Virus record (IMG/VR): IMGVR_UViG_3300021440_000028
Span: 1 to 52,405 of that record
From: a virus
DNA length: 52,405 nucleotides
Reading direction: 5' to 3' (one strand)
Positions 13,927-39,667 of the stretch are shown here, one piece after another; position 1 is the stretch's first letter, and each line of letters begins with the position of its first letter. The notes under the pieces were generated by a model. The model worked only from the letters and a program-made list of their open reading frames with translations. It did no database searches and was not told the origin of the DNA. The translations under genes and the position numbers were made by a program.

Positions 13927-13974
13927 GCCGAGAGGGTAGGGCGGAGGTGGATCAGAAACTGTGCCAGGGCTGCT

Positions 13975-13982
13975 GGATATTG
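13975..13982 (+). promoter_or_regulatory. Candidate integrase arm site 1
   Basis: GGATATTG followed by GACAGCGTC. The same sentence (GGATATTG A ACA C CGTC) recurs at 14241 and an inverted core at 14003-14010. Together they flank the tRNA-Asn core, as arm-type integrase sites do. Confidence 0.45.
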
Positions 13983-14002
13983 GACAGCGTCCAACTGGCG
14001 TT

Positions 14003-14010
14003 CAATATCC
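14003..14010 (-). promoter_or_regulatory. Candidate integrase arm site 2 (inverted)
   Basis: CAATATCC on the plus strand (GGATATTG on the minus strand) within ttcaatatccgg. It forms an inverted pair with 13975-13982. A looser inverted match lies at 14181-14191 (ccaatatatcc). Confidence 0.4.
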
Positions 14011-14019
14011 GGCAAGTTA

Positions 14020-14062
14020 GAAAAGAAAAAGGCACCTAGCCTTGTGGGCTAAGTGCCTGTTT
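14020..14062 (-). terminator. Strong intrinsic terminator after the integrase operon
   Basis: AGGCACCTAGCC and GGCTAAGTGCCT form a 12-bp stem with one mismatch and a 5-nt loop. On the minus strand it is followed by a T-rich run (TTTTTCTTTTCT, plus-strand agaaaagaaaaa). It should end leftward transcription coming out of the integrase and attP region. Confidence 0.75.
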
Positions 14063-14077
14063 CATATCGGTTTTCTT

Positions 14078-14122
14078 TGGCTCCCCGACCTGGGCTCGAA
14101 CCAGGGACCTACGGATTAACAG
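14078..14122 (-). other. attP: attP core identical in form to 3' end of tRNA-Asn(GUU)
   Basis: Read on the minus strand, this 45-nt segment has CTGTTAATC (anticodon GUU with its flanks), the T-arm GGTTCGAGCC and a 3' acceptor ending in GCCA. Only the 3' half of a tRNA is present, with no D-arm or 5' acceptor. This is what a phage attachment core that restores the host tRNA upon integration looks like. It lies 134 nt beyond the integrase stop. Confidence 0.8.
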
Positions 14123-14240
14123 GCGGCGGGTGCAATCGGGCTGGACTCCGCGCCAATGCTCAAAATCTGCCGGTGCACCTCCAATATATCCGAGGCCCCG
14201 TTACAAATTTCTACCTGCGGACGCCCTGCTCGAAACTACT

Positions 14241-14248
14241 GGATATTG
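14241..14248 (+). promoter_or_regulatory. Candidate integrase arm site 3
   Basis: GGATATTG followed by AACACCGTC, matching the copy at 13975 at most positions, including the preceding CTxCT. It lies on the other side of the attachment core and directly abuts the integrase 3' end. Confidence 0.45.
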
Positions 14249-14255
14249 AACACCG

Positions 14256-15341
14256 TCAGGCCGTGATTTTCCGGTCGTTCGGCGCTACGGTCTGCGTCCA
14301 CCTGGCCTTGATGTAGATCTCGGTCGTGCTGGCCTTCGAGTGGCCGCACAGCAGCTGGATGCGCTCGATCGGCTCGCCGGCCAGCCACATGTCAGTGGCG
14401 CCCTTGCCCTTCAGGTCGCGAAAGCCGAAGGCGGGCATCTTGGCCAGCGCCTTGTGCTTCTGCCGGGCCTTGCCCTGGGCCCGCTTCAGCATCGCGCTGA
14501 TCCCGCTGTAGCTGTAGGCCTCGCCGGTCAGCGTGTGCACGATTGGTTGATGCAGCACCGGCACGGCACCGATGGCCTGATCCAGCAGCGCGGCCAGGTC
14601 TCCGGTCACCGCAATCTGCACGCCGCGGCCGGTCTTGCGCTGCTGGAACGCCAGCACGCGGCCACCCTCGGGCGACTGCTTCACCACCGCCGCCGTCCAG
14701 CCCAGGATGTCGGACTCGGGGCGCTGCAGGGTGCGATAGGTCAGCTCCATCAACAGCCGCACGGTGGGGGGCGCCTCTTCGTAGACGGCCTGGTACTCAG
14801 CATCGGTCACGTAGCGGGCGCGTGCGGTTTCGCTGTTGCGCTGGATGCCGCTCGCTCGCATGCACGGGTTGATCTTCAGGCCGCCGTGCCGGTTGCGCAG
14901 CATCCAGCTGATGCACGACGACAGCGCCGCGCGCTCGCGGTTGGCGCGGACCGCCCGGCCTTCTTTCGCCCCCTCCTTCAGGTAGGCGTCGATGTGGTGG
15001 GGCTCGATCTGCTGCGGCAGGAAGTGGCCGAAGATCTGGCGCAGCATGCCCGGTTCGTCGGCCGTGCCGAACGCATCCTGGTAGTCCTTCAGGGTGCGCT
15101 CGCTGCGGAGCTTGGCGCGAACCTGCTGCTCGAAGTCCAGCAGGAACTGCTGCATGAACCAGGTCATCGTGCCGTAGGTGCCTGTCGGGTCAGCGTAGTG
15201 CTCGGCTTTGCGCTTCGCCGCGGCCAGGTCCTTGCCCAGGTTCTCCCACTTGCCTGACCGGTGGGCGTAGAAGAACGAGCCGTGGCGCAGGTACACCCGC
15301 TGCGGCAGGCCCAGGCTGTCGTCCTTACGCTTTCTGCCCAC
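14256..15341 (-). CDS. int: Tyrosine-type site-specific integrase
   Basis: The 361-residue product has an N-terminal arm-binding part (residues 1-60), a core-binding SAM-like domain (60-165) and a catalytic domain. Visible active-site positions are Arg207 (YRTLQRPESD), Lys236 (QQRKTGRG), Arg308/Lys311 (FGFRDLKGKGATD), His334 (LLCGHSKAS) and Tyr343 (TTEIYIK). The usual box II HxxR is replaced by RDLK, as in related integrases with RDLR. The gene ends beside attP and starts inside the DUF4224 gene (17-nt overlap), making it the last gene of the long leftward operon. Confidence 0.9.
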   Translation of the reverse strand: MGRKRKDDSLGLPQRVYLRHGSFFYAHRSGKWENLGKDLAAAKRKAEHYADPTGTYGTMTWFMQQFLLDFEQQVRAKLRSERTLKDYQDAFGTADEPGMLRQIFGHFLPQQIEPHHIDAYLKEGAKEGRAVRANRERAALSSCISWMLRNRHGGLKINPCMRASGIQRNSETARARYVTDAEYQAVYEEAPPTVRLLMELTYRTLQRPESDILGWTAAVVKQSPEGGRVLAFQQRKTGRGVQIAVTGDLAALLDQAIGAVPVLHQPIVHTLTGEAYSYSGISAMLKRAQGKARQKHKALAKMPAFGFRDLKGKGATDMWLAGEPIERIQLLCGHSKASTTEIYIKARWTQTVAPNDRKITA

Positions 15342-31325: not shown

Positions 31326-31926
31326 ACTCCGATTGACGGCTGCTCTGGATAGCGAAGAGCGCGGCGCGGTGCCTCAGCGCATTGATGGTGGCGCTGGCAA
31401 CACGATGAGCTGCCAACTCAGCCAAGACGATCTGCGGATGTTGCGGTCTTGCGGCGCGATCAAGGCTTACCAGACGCAGAAACACCATGCGGTTCGCCGC
31501 GGCGTCGACTTCCATTTGACGCTGGAAGAGTGGTGGGCCGTCTGGAGCTTCAGCGGTCACTTTAGTGAGCGGGGCCGTGGGGCATACCGCTACTGCATGA
31601 GTCGGCATGGAGACGTTGGCCCATATGCCGTCGGCAACGTGTTCATTCAGACCAATGCGCAGAACGTCAGCGAGTTCAGAAAGCGGTTCGTCAGCGAAGG
31701 GCGCCAGCGCCTGAGTCGTAGCCGAATTGGCACCGGGCGCGGCTGGGGGTTCTATCCCGAGCGCAGCAGGTCCAAGCCGTACTTGGTGCAGGTGGCTGGA
31801 ACCAAGCCCACATCGCACGCAACGCAAGCCGAGGCCGAGGCCGAGTACCAGCGGCGATCCGCCGCCGTACTCGCCGAGCGGGAAATGGAGCGTGCGGCAG
31901 TGGTGCATGACCAAGCATCACATTGA
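31315..31926 (+). CDS. HNH-like/AP2-like DNA-binding protein, putative selfish endonuclease
   Basis: The 203-residue product has the phage HNH-related core FSERGRGAYRYCMSRHGDVG then PYAVGNVFIQTNAQNVSEF (the 'M-R-G-D-G-Y-x-x-x-N-V-x-I-x-x-x-x-x-N' pattern). A C-terminal AP2-like repeat follows: GRGWGFYPERSRSKPYLVQV, AGTKPTSHATQAEAEAEYQR. The DNA is less GC-rich than neighbours, a sign of recent arrival. A second ATG at 31405 could be the true start. Catalytic capacity uncertain since a full H-N-H triad is not clear. Confidence 0.6.
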   Translation: MRTELRLTAALDSEERGAVPQRIDGGAGNTMSCQLSQDDLRMLRSCGAIKAYQTQKHHAVRRGVDFHLTLEEWWAVWSFSGHFSERGRGAYRYCMSRHGDVGPYAVGNVFIQTNAQNVSEFRKRFVSEGRQRLSRSRIGTGRGWGFYPERSRSKPYLVQVAGTKPTSHATQAEAEAEYQRRSAAVLAEREMERAAVVHDQASH

Positions 31927-32001
31927 CGCGTGATGCGCACAACAGACCACATGAGCGGCTGTCCCTTGTCGGGGGGAAGCCACCAACCACAGGAGAAGTG
32001 C

Positions 32002-32172
32002 ATGTCACGAGGTCAACGACCCAACCTGATCCGAGCAGGCCGGCCAACGAAGCTGTCCAAGGTCCTGGCGCAGTGCAACGCCGACGCCGAGCGCATGCGG
32101 CAGGAAGCCGCGCAGCGGGCGAAGACGGACCAGCCGGCGCCGGTTGTGCTGGGCGAGAAGGTGGCAGCGTGA
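32002..32172 (+). CDS. Small basic protein before helicase-methyltransferase
   Basis: A 56-residue protein MSRGQRPNLIRAGRPTKLSK, VLAQCNADAERMRQEAAQRA. A strong AGGAGAAG ribosome site supports this ATG over upstream ones. The GRPTK motif and helix could bind DNA. It overlaps the GTG of the fusion gene by 4 nt. Confidence 0.55.
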   Translation: MSRGQRPNLIRAGRPTKLSKVLAQCNADAERMRQEAAQRAKTDQPAPVVLGEKVAA

Positions 32173-34673
32173 GCGACTACACCGCTTTCCTGCGCCAGAA
32201 GATCAAGATGGCCAGCTTCAAGGGCTTCCAGGTGGAGCCCGAGGCCTGCCATCCCTGCCTGTTCCCGCACCAGCGCGACATCGTGCGCTGGGCCGTGCTG
32301 GGCGGTAACCGCGCCATCTTCGCCAGCTTCGGCCTGGGCAAGAGCGTGATGCAGTGCGAGTGGTTGCGGCAGATCGGCGCGGCCGTGCCGGGCGATGACC
32401 CTCTGCTGATCGTCTGCCCGTTGGGCGTGCGGCAGGAACTGATCCGCGACGCGGCGATGCTCGGCATCGAGCTGCGGTTCATCCGCACCGAGGCCGAGAT
32501 GGAGCCGGGCCACCGCTTCTACTGCACGAACTACGAGAGCGTGCGCGACGGCAAGCTGAACCCGCAGATCTTCCTGGCCGTCAGCCTGGACGAGGCGAGC
32601 GTGCTGCGCAGCTTCGGCAGCAAGACCTATCAGGAGTTCCTGCCGCTGTTCGAAGGCGTGCGCTTCAAGCTGGTGAACACGGCCACGCCGAGCCCGAACC
32701 GCTTCAAGGAGTTGATCCACTACGCCGGCTTCCTGGGCGTGATGGACACCGGCCAGGCGCTGACCCGGTTCTTCCAACGCGACAGCGAGAAGGCCGGCAA
32801 CCTGACGCTCTACCCGCACAAGGAGCAGGAGTTCTGGCTGTGGGTGAGCAGCTGGGCAGTCTTCGTGCAGCGCCCGAGCGACCTGGGCTACAGCGACGAG
32901 GGCTATGACCTGCCGCCGATCGAGGTCCGGTACCACGAGGTGCCGACCGACTACAGCCAGGCCGGCGCCGACCGCGACGGGCAGGTCCTGATGTTCACCG
33001 ACCCGGCGCTGGGTCTGAGTGCTGCAGCAGCCGAGAAGCGCGACAGCATGCCTGCTCGCGTGGCGAAGGTGGCGGAGATCCTGGCCGCTTCACCGGCTGA
33101 CCACTTCGTGATCTGGCACGACCTGGAAAGTGAGCGGCACGCCCTGCAGGCGGCGATCCCCGAGGCCGTCAGCGTCTGGGGCAGCCAGGACCTGGACGAG
33201 CGCGAGCGCCGCATCGTGGCCTTTGGCGACGGTGAGTTCCGCGTGCTGTCGACCAAGCCGGTGATCGCCGGCAGCGGCTGCAACTTCCAGCGCCACTGCC
33301 ACCGCGAGGTCTTCGCCGGGATCGGCTTCAAGTTCAACGACTTCATCCAGGCCATCCACCGCGTGCAGCGCTTCCAGCAGCCGCACCCGGTGGTGATCGA
33401 CATCGTCTACAGCGAAGCCGAGCGCGAGGTCCTGCGCACGCTGCAGCAGAAGTGGACCCAACACGAGGAGATGGTGCAGAACATGACCGAGATCATCAAG
33501 CAGTACGGCCTGAACCAGTTGGCCATGCAGGAGGTGCTGGCCAGGTCGATCGGCGTGAAGCGTCTGGAGGTCAAGGGCGACCTGTTCGCGGTGGCCAACA
33601 ACGACTGTGTGGAAGAGGCGAAGCTGCAGCCCGAGAACCACGTCGACCTGATCGTCACCAGCATCCCGTTTGCGAACCACTACGAATACAGCCCGAGCTA
33701 CAACGACTTCGGGCACACCGAGGACAACGACCACTTCTGGCAGCAGATGGACCATCTGACGCCCGAGCTGCTGCGCATCCTGAAGCCGGGCCGCATCTAC
33801 GCCTGCCACGTCAAGGACCGGATCCTGTTTGGCAACGTGACCGGCGCCGGCGCACCGACCGTCAGCCCGTTCCACTGCGAGGCCATCATGCACGGCCGCA
33901 AGCACGGCTTAGACTACATGGGCCTGATCACCGTCGTCACTGACGTGGTGCGGGAGAACAACCAGACCTACCGCCTGGGCTGGTCCGAGCAGTGCAAGGA
34001 CGGCACGAAGATGGGCGTCGGGTCGCCCGAGTACATCGTCCTGTTCCGCAAGCCGCAGACCGATCGGTCGAAGGGCTACGCCGACGTGCCGGTGGCCAAG
34101 TCGAAGCAGGCCTACACCCGCGCGCACTGGCAGGTCGACGCGCATGCCTTCTGGCGCAGCAGCGGCAACCGGCAGATCACCGCCGACGAGCTCGCCGGCC
34201 TGGGTCCGGACAAGCTGGCCAGCATCTTCACGCAGTACAGCCTGCAGCACGTCTACGACTACGAGTTCCACGTCCGGATCGGCGAGGAACTGGAGGCCCG
34301 CGGCGCGCTGCCGTCGACCTTCATGAGCCTGGCGCCCGGTAGCCATCACCCGGATGTGTGGCACGACGTGACCCGCATGCTGACGCTGAACAGCGAGCAG
34401 AGCCGGCGCGCGGTCGAGAAGCACGTCTGCCCGCTGCAGTTCGACATCGTGGACCGCCTGATCGAGCGCTACAGCAACGCGGGCGAGCTGGTCTATGACC
34501 CGTTCTGTGGCCTGGGGACCGTGCCCTACCGGGCCATCCTGAAGGGCCGGCGCGGCGGTGGCAGCGAGCTGAACCCGGCCTACTTCCTGGACCAGGTGCA
34601 CTACCTGAAAGCGGCCGAGCGCGAGTTCTCCATGCCGTCGCTGTTCGATGCGCTGGAGGCGGAAGCCGCATGA
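32169..34673 (+). CDS. Helicase-DNA methyltransferase fusion
   Basis: The 834-residue product (GTG start in GTGA with the upstream stop) joins an SNF2/DEAD-like helicase and an amino-methyltransferase. Helicase: PHQRDIVRWA near residue 33, Walker A FGLGKS (54-59), Walker B variant SLDEAS (139-144), TATPSPNRF (motif III), later KPVIAGSGCNFQRHC and FIQAIHRVQRFQQP (motifs V-VI). Methyltransferase: catalytic TSIPF at 497-501 (a variant of TSPPY) and SAM-binding DPFCGLGT at about 777-784. The order (motif IV before I) is the beta class. It probably modifies phage DNA against host restriction, with the motor acting in cis. No nuclease domain is seen. Confidence 0.8.
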   Translation: MSDYTAFLRQKIKMASFKGFQVEPEACHPCLFPHQRDIVRWAVLGGNRAIFASFGLGKSVMQCEWLRQIGAAVPGDDPLLIVCPLGVRQELIRDAAMLGIELRFIRTEAEMEPGHRFYCTNYESVRDGKLNPQIFLAVSLDEASVLRSFGSKTYQEFLPLFEGVRFKLVNTATPSPNRFKELIHYAGFLGVMDTGQALTRFFQRDSEKAGNLTLYPHKEQEFWLWVSSWAVFVQRPSDLGYSDEGYDLPPIEVRYHEVPTDYSQAGADRDGQVLMFTDPALGLSAAAAEKRDSMPARVAKVAEILAASPADHFVIWHDLESERHALQAAIPEAVSVWGSQDLDERERRIVAFGDGEFRVLSTKPVIAGSGCNFQRHCHREVFAGIGFKFNDFIQAIHRVQRFQQPHPVVIDIVYSEAEREVLRTLQQKWTQHEEMVQNMTEIIKQYGLNQLAMQEVLARSIGVKRLEVKGDLFAVANNDCVEEAKLQPENHVDLIVTSIPFANHYEYSPSYNDFGHTEDNDHFWQQMDHLTPELLRILKPGRIYACHVKDRILFGNVTGAGAPTVSPFHCEAIMHGRKHGLDYMGLITVVTDVVRENNQTYRLGWSEQCKDGTKMGVGSPEYIVLFRKPQTDRSKGYADVPVAKSKQAYTRAHWQVDAHAFWRSSGNRQITADELAGLGPDKLASIFTQYSLQHVYDYEFHVRIGEELEARGALPSTFMSLAPGSHHPDVWHDVTRMLTLNSEQSRRAVEKHVCPLQFDIVDRLIERYSNAGELVYDPFCGLGTVPYRAILKGRRGGGSELNPAYFLDQVHYLKAAEREFSMPSLFDALEAEAA

Positions 34674-38120: not shown

Positions 38121-38212
38121 TGGCCCCGGTCTGCCCGCTGTGCCGCGGCCCGCACCCCCTCAGCCGTTGCCCTGGCTGGCTCGGACGGCGCAAGCAGCCG
38201 AAGGCCGGATGA
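38120..38212 (+). CDS. 30-residue Zn-knuckle peptide
   Basis: MAPVCPLCRGPHPLSRCPGW then a basic end LGRRKQPKAG. C-x2-C-x3-H-x4-C is close to a CCHC knuckle. Start and stop overlap neighbours by one to four bases, supporting translation. Confidence 0.5.
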   Translation: MAPVCPLCRGPHPLSRCPGWLGRRKQPKAG

Positions 38213-38487
38213 CAGCCGTTGCATGCCCCGACTGCACTCGCAGCCGCGCAGGCCTGTGGTGCGGGTACATGGCCAGCTGCCCGGACTGCTGCGCCCGGGC
38301 CATCGCCCGCAGCCTCCCCGCATTCCAGGCGCTGCACCCGCGCGGCAGCGGCGAGCGCGACCCGTTGCGCGACGCCATCCAGCGCGCCATGCCAACCACC
38401 GACTACGCCACCGCCCGCCGCATGGTCTGGGCCTGGTGGCAGCACGATCACCCCGAAGCTCTGGCGCACGCGCCTGCCAAACCATGA
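38209..38487 (+). CDS. Small Cys-rich protein
   Basis: The 92-residue product has CPDCTRSRAGLWCGYMASCP then DCCARAIARSL, a Zn-binding set, followed by ERDPLRDAIQRAMPTTDYAT and ARRMVWAWWQHDHPE. Pattern known from phage early proteins preceding late regulators. ATGA overlaps on both sides. Confidence 0.6.
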   Translation: MTAVACPDCTRSRAGLWCGYMASCPDCCARAIARSLPAFQALHPRGSGERDPLRDAIQRAMPTTDYATARRMVWAWWQHDHPEALAHAPAKP

Positions 38488-39143
38488 ACACTGCCAGCAC
38501 CCTTCAGCAAGTTCCGGCAACCTTCGCCGCATCCAAGATCATCGGCAAGCACCGATTCGGTCCAGGCCTTGTTCTTCGCGTTGCTGCTGTCGGGTCTTCG
38601 TGGATCTTCCGGTACACGTCGCCAGTCACCGGGAAACGGCGCGAGATAGGGCTTGGCCCGCTGGCAGCAATGAACGACGAGCAGTTCGCGGCTGAGTTGG
38701 CGCGCCACCGATCCGACGTGCACAAGTTCCACATGGAGATTCGACAGGGGCGTTGTCCGCTGGCCGAGAAGCAGGCCGCTGATGCCAGCAGAAAGGTCGA
38801 GTCAATCCGAAGCCGGGGGCTGACCGTCCGAAGAATGTTGCGCAAGTGGTGCGATGCAAACGAGAGCCGATGGTCGACGAAGTACGCATCGTCAGTGGCG
38901 CGGATGATCGAGAACGATCCGCCAGGGTGGCTGCTGGACATCCCGGCCATCGACTTGACGGCAGAGCACGTCATCGATGCGCTGCGCGAGATGGAGCGGA
39001 ACATCCCCGCCCGCCGGATCGACCTTGCGCGGCAGCGCCTCTCATGGGCCCTGGAGTGGATGATCGACGGCGGCCACCTGTCCGCGAACGCGGCCGGCGT
39101 GCTGCGCATCGTGCGTGGGCGCTTTGCCGAGGTCGACGCATGA
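38484..39143 (+). CDS. Integrase-like protein lacking the catalytic domain
   Basis: The 219-residue product matches the first two domains of P4-type integrases. The N-terminal arm-binding domain has GPGLVLRVAAVGSSWIFRYT, SPVTGKRREIGLGPLAAMND. The core-binding domain has LTVRRMLRKWCDANESRWST, WLLDIPAIDLTAEHVIDALR, LARQRLSWALEWMIDGGHLS. It stops where the R...HxxR...Y catalytic domain should begin. The frame is intact and overlaps both neighbours by ATGA, so this is a kept gene, not decay. It probably binds DNA; whether at attP, host sites or the late promoter just downstream is unknown. Confidence 0.7.
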   Translation: MNTASTLQQVPATFAASKIIGKHRFGPGLVLRVAAVGSSWIFRYTSPVTGKRREIGLGPLAAMNDEQFAAELARHRSDVHKFHMEIRQGRCPLAEKQAADASRKVESIRSRGLTVRRMLRKWCDANESRWSTKYASSVARMIENDPPGWLLDIPAIDLTAEHVIDALREMERNIPARRIDLARQRLSWALEWMIDGGHLSANAAGVLRIVRGRFAEVDA

Positions 39144-39667
39144 ACTTCGCCGACCGCTACGCCCCCGCCACCCGCGCCAGCAACCTCGGCAGCAAGCCGG
39201 ACACGACCAGCAGCCCCAGCGACGTGCTGGGCGCCGCCGGGCTGGCCGCCAAGCGCGTGCCATTGGGCATCGCCCTGATGCGCCTGCTGTCGGGCGACAA
39301 CCACGCGATCCGGCCGATTGTGGAGATGCTGGCCGGCATGGCATGGGACCGAGCCCGCCGCGACGGTGTGAAGCTGCGCCGCACGCAGGCCGAGGACATG
39401 GCGCAGACGGTGCTGGACTGGTGCCGCGATGGTCGCTGCCGGCGCTGCGGCGGCCACGGCTTCAAGCTGATCCCGGGCGCCCCGGCGCTGAGCGAGCATC
39501 CGTGCCCCAGCTGCCAGGGCGGGAAGGTACGGTTTGATCGCCTGTTCGCCATGGAGCGCTTGGGCGTGGCGTGGTGGCTGCGGGAGCAGATCGAGCGAGA
39601 CATGGCGATGGCCGGCCCCGAGGCCATGAAGGCGCTGGCGGAGCGCATGACGCTCCCCGGGGCTTGA
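39140..39667 (+). CDS. Q-like late antiterminator
   Basis: The 175-residue product has a helical first part (RVPLGIALMRLLSGDNHAIR, LAGMAWDRARRDGVKLRRTQ) and a DnaJ-type Zn finger, CRRCGGHGFKLIPGAP ... CPSCQGGKVRFD, seen in one class of phage Q proteins. A helical end follows. It ends just as the late promoter begins and is followed by a leader terminator, the classical Q arrangement. Family call rests on Zn finger plus position. Confidence 0.65.
   Translation: MNFADRYAPATRASNLGSKPDTTSSPSDVLGAAGLAAKRVPLGIALMRLLSGDNHAIRPIVEMLAGMAWDRARRDGVKLRRTQAEDMAQTVLDWCRDGRCRRCGGHGFKLIPGAPALSEHPCPSCQGGKVRFDRLFAMERLGVAWWLREQIERDMAMAGPEAMKALAERMTLPGA

Follow-up and report, generated by a model that had tools for sequence, protein, structure and literature searches.

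The window analysed here (the whole 52,405-nucleotide stretch of viral DNA, IMG/VR record IMGVR_UViG_3300021440_000028) harbours an intact gene, 38484-39143 on the plus strand, whose 219-aa product carries the two N-terminal DNA-binding domains of a P4-type integrase without the catalytic domain. As judged from the sequence of this single example, the product is probably a repurposed DNA-binding protein that acts as a regulator or a blocker. The chances appear about even that it is a non-catalytic, integrase-derived DNA-binding protein whose gene a temperate tailed phage carries as an accessory in its late-regulator slot.

Domain architecture of the gene product

38484..39143, plus strand: two-domain, catalytic-domain-less integrase-like gene, 219 aa plus stop (sequence, Pfam, PHROG, AlphaFold2 and PDB matches)
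38535..38780, plus strand: arm-type DNA-binding domain, residues 18-99 (Pfam PF13356, Arm-DNA-bind_3, E 1.2e-7)
38835..39104, plus strand: core-binding domain, residues 118-207 (Pfam PF22022, Phage_int_M, E 1.6e-7)

The sequence-only reading had described an intact gene with arm-binding and core-binding domains and without a catalytic domain; Pfam, tblastn and the open reading frame agree on this point, and the observation is confirmed as real. When judged against the curated Pfam cut-offs, both domains exceed them (32.2 bits for Arm-DNA-bind_3 and 31.9 bits for Phage_int_M, against a cut-off of 27), and their succession is the N-terminal architecture of P4-type integrases according to both Pfam and the fold matches. 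The C-terminal catalytic domain with the R-K-H-R-H/W-Y residues, which defines a functional tyrosine recombinase, is missing: Pfam gives no PF00589 match in the protein, the open reading frame stops at the boundary between the core-binding and catalytic domains, and a tblastn search of the entire window with the catalytic halves of five related integrases recovered no catalytic relic (all E > 0.5).

The AlphaFold2 model of the protein is ordered and consists of two domains (mean pLDDT 82), an N-terminal beta-sheet plus helix being followed by a helical bundle, with the relative placement of the two uncertain (pTM 0.56). The top PDB matches of this model are lambda Int and the core-binding fragment of IntS, with the HAI7 arm domain ranking lower. 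The protein is basic (pI 10.3; 10.6 for the arm half), and its sole PHROG match is phrog_3423 (157 positions, function unassigned; E 4.2e-7 over residues 26-143), a profile that in practice corresponds to the N-terminal half of P4-type integrases. A scan of the product against defence families gave no match.

The GC content by codon position (0.64/0.50/0.77) is protein-like. Since the DNA is GC-rich and the other frames across the gene contain just 1-7 stops, the open frame is weak evidence when taken alone. Third-position GC is 0.77 here vs 0.85-0.95 in most neighbours; as the replication gene also has a value of 0.78, composition gives at most a mild hint of foreign origin.

Operon context and the empty site in related phages

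38209..38487, plus strand: upstream gene, 92 aa, cysteine-rich, no assigned function; abuts the Q-like gene in contigs L002 and L270
38484..38487, plus strand: ATGA overlap with the upstream open reading frame (sequence)
39140..39143, plus strand: ATGA overlap with the downstream open reading frame (sequence)
39140..39667, plus strand: probable Q-like antiterminator, 175 aa, CxxC...CxxC motif; allele divergent from those of L002 and L270
38460..39840: approximate mosaic block relative to L270, comprising the extra gene, the divergent Q-like gene and the stretch that directly follows it (identity profile, blastn)

The earlier claim that two ATGA overlaps lock the gene in the operon holds for the overlaps themselves, but not for the locking. 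The closest viral contigs, L002 (whose terminase is 89% identical to that of the window at the amino acid level) and L270, possess both neighbours and lack the two-domain gene; in both, the stop of the 92-aa gene overlaps the Q-like start directly through the same kind of ATGA overlap (CATGAAGATC). These empty sites rule out a conserved late-operon gene, and 38484-39143 is an accessory gene. A natural empty site in two relatives also provides a ready-made comparison.

Likewise, the placement before a late regulator is borne out as far as the gene lies directly upstream of a probable Q-like gene, but the label of regulator is weaker, the match of open reading frame 39140-39667 to phrog_127 (Q-like antiterminator) being E 8e-4. 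Matches to phrog_127 recur in four of eight family members of this downstream gene (weak but repeated, best E 3e-4), and two CxxC pairs are invariant across the family; from its sequence, the gene is a probable Q-like antiterminator. It is followed on the 3' side by a small-terminase-like open reading frame and then a clear large terminase, while RusA, an HNH-like endonuclease and replication genes lie on the 5' side of the two-domain gene. The start of 38484-39143 has no clear ribosome-binding site. GAGG(T) at 39128-39132, within the last codons of the extra gene, would suit the Q-like gene as a ribosome-binding site. The Q-like family as a whole (window 39140-39667, L002, L270, L062, L012, L026, L033, L044 and L063) has a DnaJ-type CxxC...CxxC zinc motif, is poorly annotated, matches phrog_127 weakly and lies shortly 5' of the terminase genes. 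The upstream 92-aa gene found no match in 390 genomes of one family.

Compared with L270, the window has about 90% identity over the upstream gene by blastn; in the identity profile, values are 50-79% across the Q-like gene and a little past it, and they are mostly 86-100% once about 39.84 kb is reached. As identity falls and then recovers in this manner, the gene lies within a mosaic block together with the divergent Q-like allele. The heptamer CATGAAC occurs at both junctions of the extra gene (window 38483-38489 and 39139-39145), and a short repeat at the ATGA overlap could conceivably have allowed either gain or exact loss: the gene may have been gained in the lineage of the window, or lost between the CATGAA repeats in L002 and L270, the only two relatives that bear on this point.

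Relatives, divergence and origin by truncation

A search for the same two-domain length in other phages, which the sequence-only reading had suggested, found none: the gene is absent from L002 and L270, and no orthologue or close relative was found in the viral_contigs, genome_contigs, phages and plasmids collections, in which the records nearest to the window may be absent and in which the genome searches sampled a single family, a single class and a single order. Pattern scans with the 219-aa protein gave no relative in viral_contigs or genome_contigs, and a sensitive four-seed profile, which picks up most P4-type integrases with E values of 1e-20 to 1e-60, detected no arm-domain open reading frame in loci gathered on the terminase or the replication protein. 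The best matches come from Burkholderiales and are integrases of full length (29-32% identity across about 190-200 residues, E 1e-12 to 1e-16); sequence relatives in general are only about 25-35% identical and none is at the same locus. Homology covers residues 21-207 or so, which is nearly the entire two-domain length.

Among the 112 open reading frames collected with arm-binding and core-binding domains, 105 run at least 140 aa past the core-binding domain and thus have a C-terminus of catalytic length. The remaining seven comprise three cut by contig ends and four short integrases in bacterial genomes; two of these four retain the catalytic half next to them in a different frame, and the other two form short branches among full-length integrases in the tree. 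No second stable two-domain form is present among the 112.

Several candidate short forms were rejected. The status of phrog_3423 as an established short family is unsupported, since its profile mostly matches full-length integrases and its strongest matches in bacterial genomes are mostly in open frames of 390-500 aa. Four phage genes picked for vague or missing annotation (Stenotrophomonas phage S1 gp28, Acinetobacter phi5038-11551, Pseudomonas vB_Pae_BR228a and Pasteurella Pmp14) turned out to have open frames of full length, and Helicobacter prophage BK070131, in which a short N-terminal fragment precedes a distinct integrase fragment, represents a broken integrase. Among the open-access papers searched, none on truncated or catalytic-less phage integrases was found.

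Across 70 aligned N-terminal halves, no end branch is as long as that of the 219-aa protein (2.28 changes per column; the median is 0.36). The protein has an uncertain position near the base of the tree, and it scores lowest of the 70 homologues against a profile built without it (98 bits, median 231). It retains the 16 columns that are invariant across 15 viral integrases and has lost some otherwise conserved residues, e.g. the Asp in the D..GL.L motif. Relatives that run on into a catalytic domain, regarded earlier as the sign of a recent truncation, do exist (the 105 above), but recent truncation of a sampled integrase is not indicated, because identity is only 25-35%, none of the relatives is at the locus, no relic is left and the branch is the longest. 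A stop mutation with the catalytic half downstream was rejected as well, as no such relic remains and the gene that follows is homologous to the Q-like gene of the relatives. The divergence may predate loss of the catalytic domain, arising in a still full integrase.

The phage's own integrase and att region

The integrase of the phage itself (14256-15341, minus strand) matches phrog_1 (E 1e-28) and contains PF00589. As claimed earlier, the two-domain protein differs from it: the two belong to different classes, and direct comparison gives 22.7 bits (E 0.008) over 58 residues only. On the basis of Pfam, PHROG and this comparison, derivation of 38484-39143 from the own integrase was rejected. 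The probable attP of this integrase lies at window 13970-14260. By eye, about 14080-14123 reads, on the opposite strand, as the 3' half of a tRNA-Asn(GTT); two 19-bp repeats, CTGGATATTGRACANCGTC, at 13973 and 14239 flank this tRNA-like stretch (when up to 3 mismatches are allowed, chance would give 0.01), and near 14000 there is a partial inverted copy. Beyond the att region 13973-14257, which is 24 kb from the two-domain gene, no arm repeat of the own integrase occurs, and no repeats near 38484-39143 are convincing as arm sites.

Proposed role and rival explanations

P4-type integrases (IntS, Sf6 Int and P4 Int, as well as those of the Burkholderiales loci L288-L292) have two N-terminal DNA-binding domains in the same order as the 219-aa protein; unlike it, they possess the catalytic domain, whereas the gene described here does not adjoin an att site and none of the other sequences among the 70 is as divergent as its product. 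Both IntS and P4 Int bind beside their own promoters and thereby repress them (PMC2951348). MrpR, the master repressor of SPbeta, is a recombinase-fold protein that has lost recombination and now serves as a repressor (PMC10516654). The likeness to MrpR is drawn from its published description: both are phage DNA-binding proteins of tyrosine-recombinase origin without recombinase function, and Pfam and tblastn agree that the 219-aa protein is recombinase-derived and devoid of the domain needed to catalyse recombination. MrpR, as described (PMC10516654), keeps a dead catalytic-domain fold and consists of core-binding and catalytic domains only, whereas the 219-aa protein lacks the degenerate catalytic fold altogether and has an arm domain. 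By analogy with the autorepression of IntS and P4 Int (PMC2951348) and with MrpR (PMC10516654), the most likely function of the accessory DNA-binding protein would be that of a repressor or regulator. Translation would occur by coupling, given that the upstream stop overlaps the start and that no clear ribosome-binding site precedes it; the N-terminal domain would bind arm-type repeats and the second domain core-type half-sites, and the bound protein may repress or modulate a promoter at its sites. A phage promoter could be the target; the int/att region of another element is a less likely one. Tentatively, and as a possibility that we would not put higher, a phage lineage may have made the two DNA-binding domains of a P4-type integrase into an independent accessory protein, either a regulator or one that blocks rival integrases, which was swapped in with the late antiterminator allele.

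It is possible, though rather doubtful, that the gene is instead a fossil fragment, i.e. the 5' part of a divergent integrase gene, captured by chance, open and translated but functionless, that has been retained since it is recent in the phage and the neighbouring genes still work. Such an origin would agree with the lack of orthologues in the four collections, the absence of the gene from the two nearest relatives, third-position GC somewhat below that of most neighbours, the lowest profile score with its lost conserved residues, and the frequency of broken integrases in bacterial genomes and prophages. Against it, the frame is intact over 219 codons and ends at a domain boundary, both domains are still recognised and predicted to fold, and the joins are exact ATGA overlaps at both ends, which random capture is not expected to yield. 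The longest branch in combination with an intact frame further argues for long maintenance as a coding gene.

An anti-competitor decoy, which would occupy arm and core sites or form dead mixed complexes with P4-type integrases and so block the integration or excision of satellites and rival prophages, is unlikely. Its domains do belong to the P4-type class, and self-interference is not expected because the own integrase is of a different class; the accessory distribution also suits a moron or competition gene. However, there is no known target and no defence-family match, the timing beside a late regulator is not obviously right for a block of integration, and as identity to any sampled integrase is only 25-35%, it is doubtful that sites would be shared or mixed complexes formed. 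Least probable is a helper in the integration or excision of the phage itself (Xis-like or arm-binding). Arm-binding domains are established architectural parts of intasomes (PMC2951348), but the own integrase is of a different class without clear similarity, and its arm repeats are confined to 13973-14257, 24 kb from the late operon that holds the gene.

If the repurposed DNA-binding protein is functional, it would represent a second route from recombinase to regulator, in which the whole catalytic domain is lost, unlike the active-site decay of MrpR, and it would place an integrase-type DNA reader directly in a late-regulator cassette; alternatively, it would be a phage weapon against competing integrative elements.

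Additional observation in the window

The protein encoded at window 31923-34673 is 916 aa long and contains an N6/N4 DNA methylase domain. At the DNA level, its gene is about 68-70% identical to genes that bear the annotation helicase/methylase in phages of Arthrobacter and Pseudomonas, which is an unusually wide host spread.
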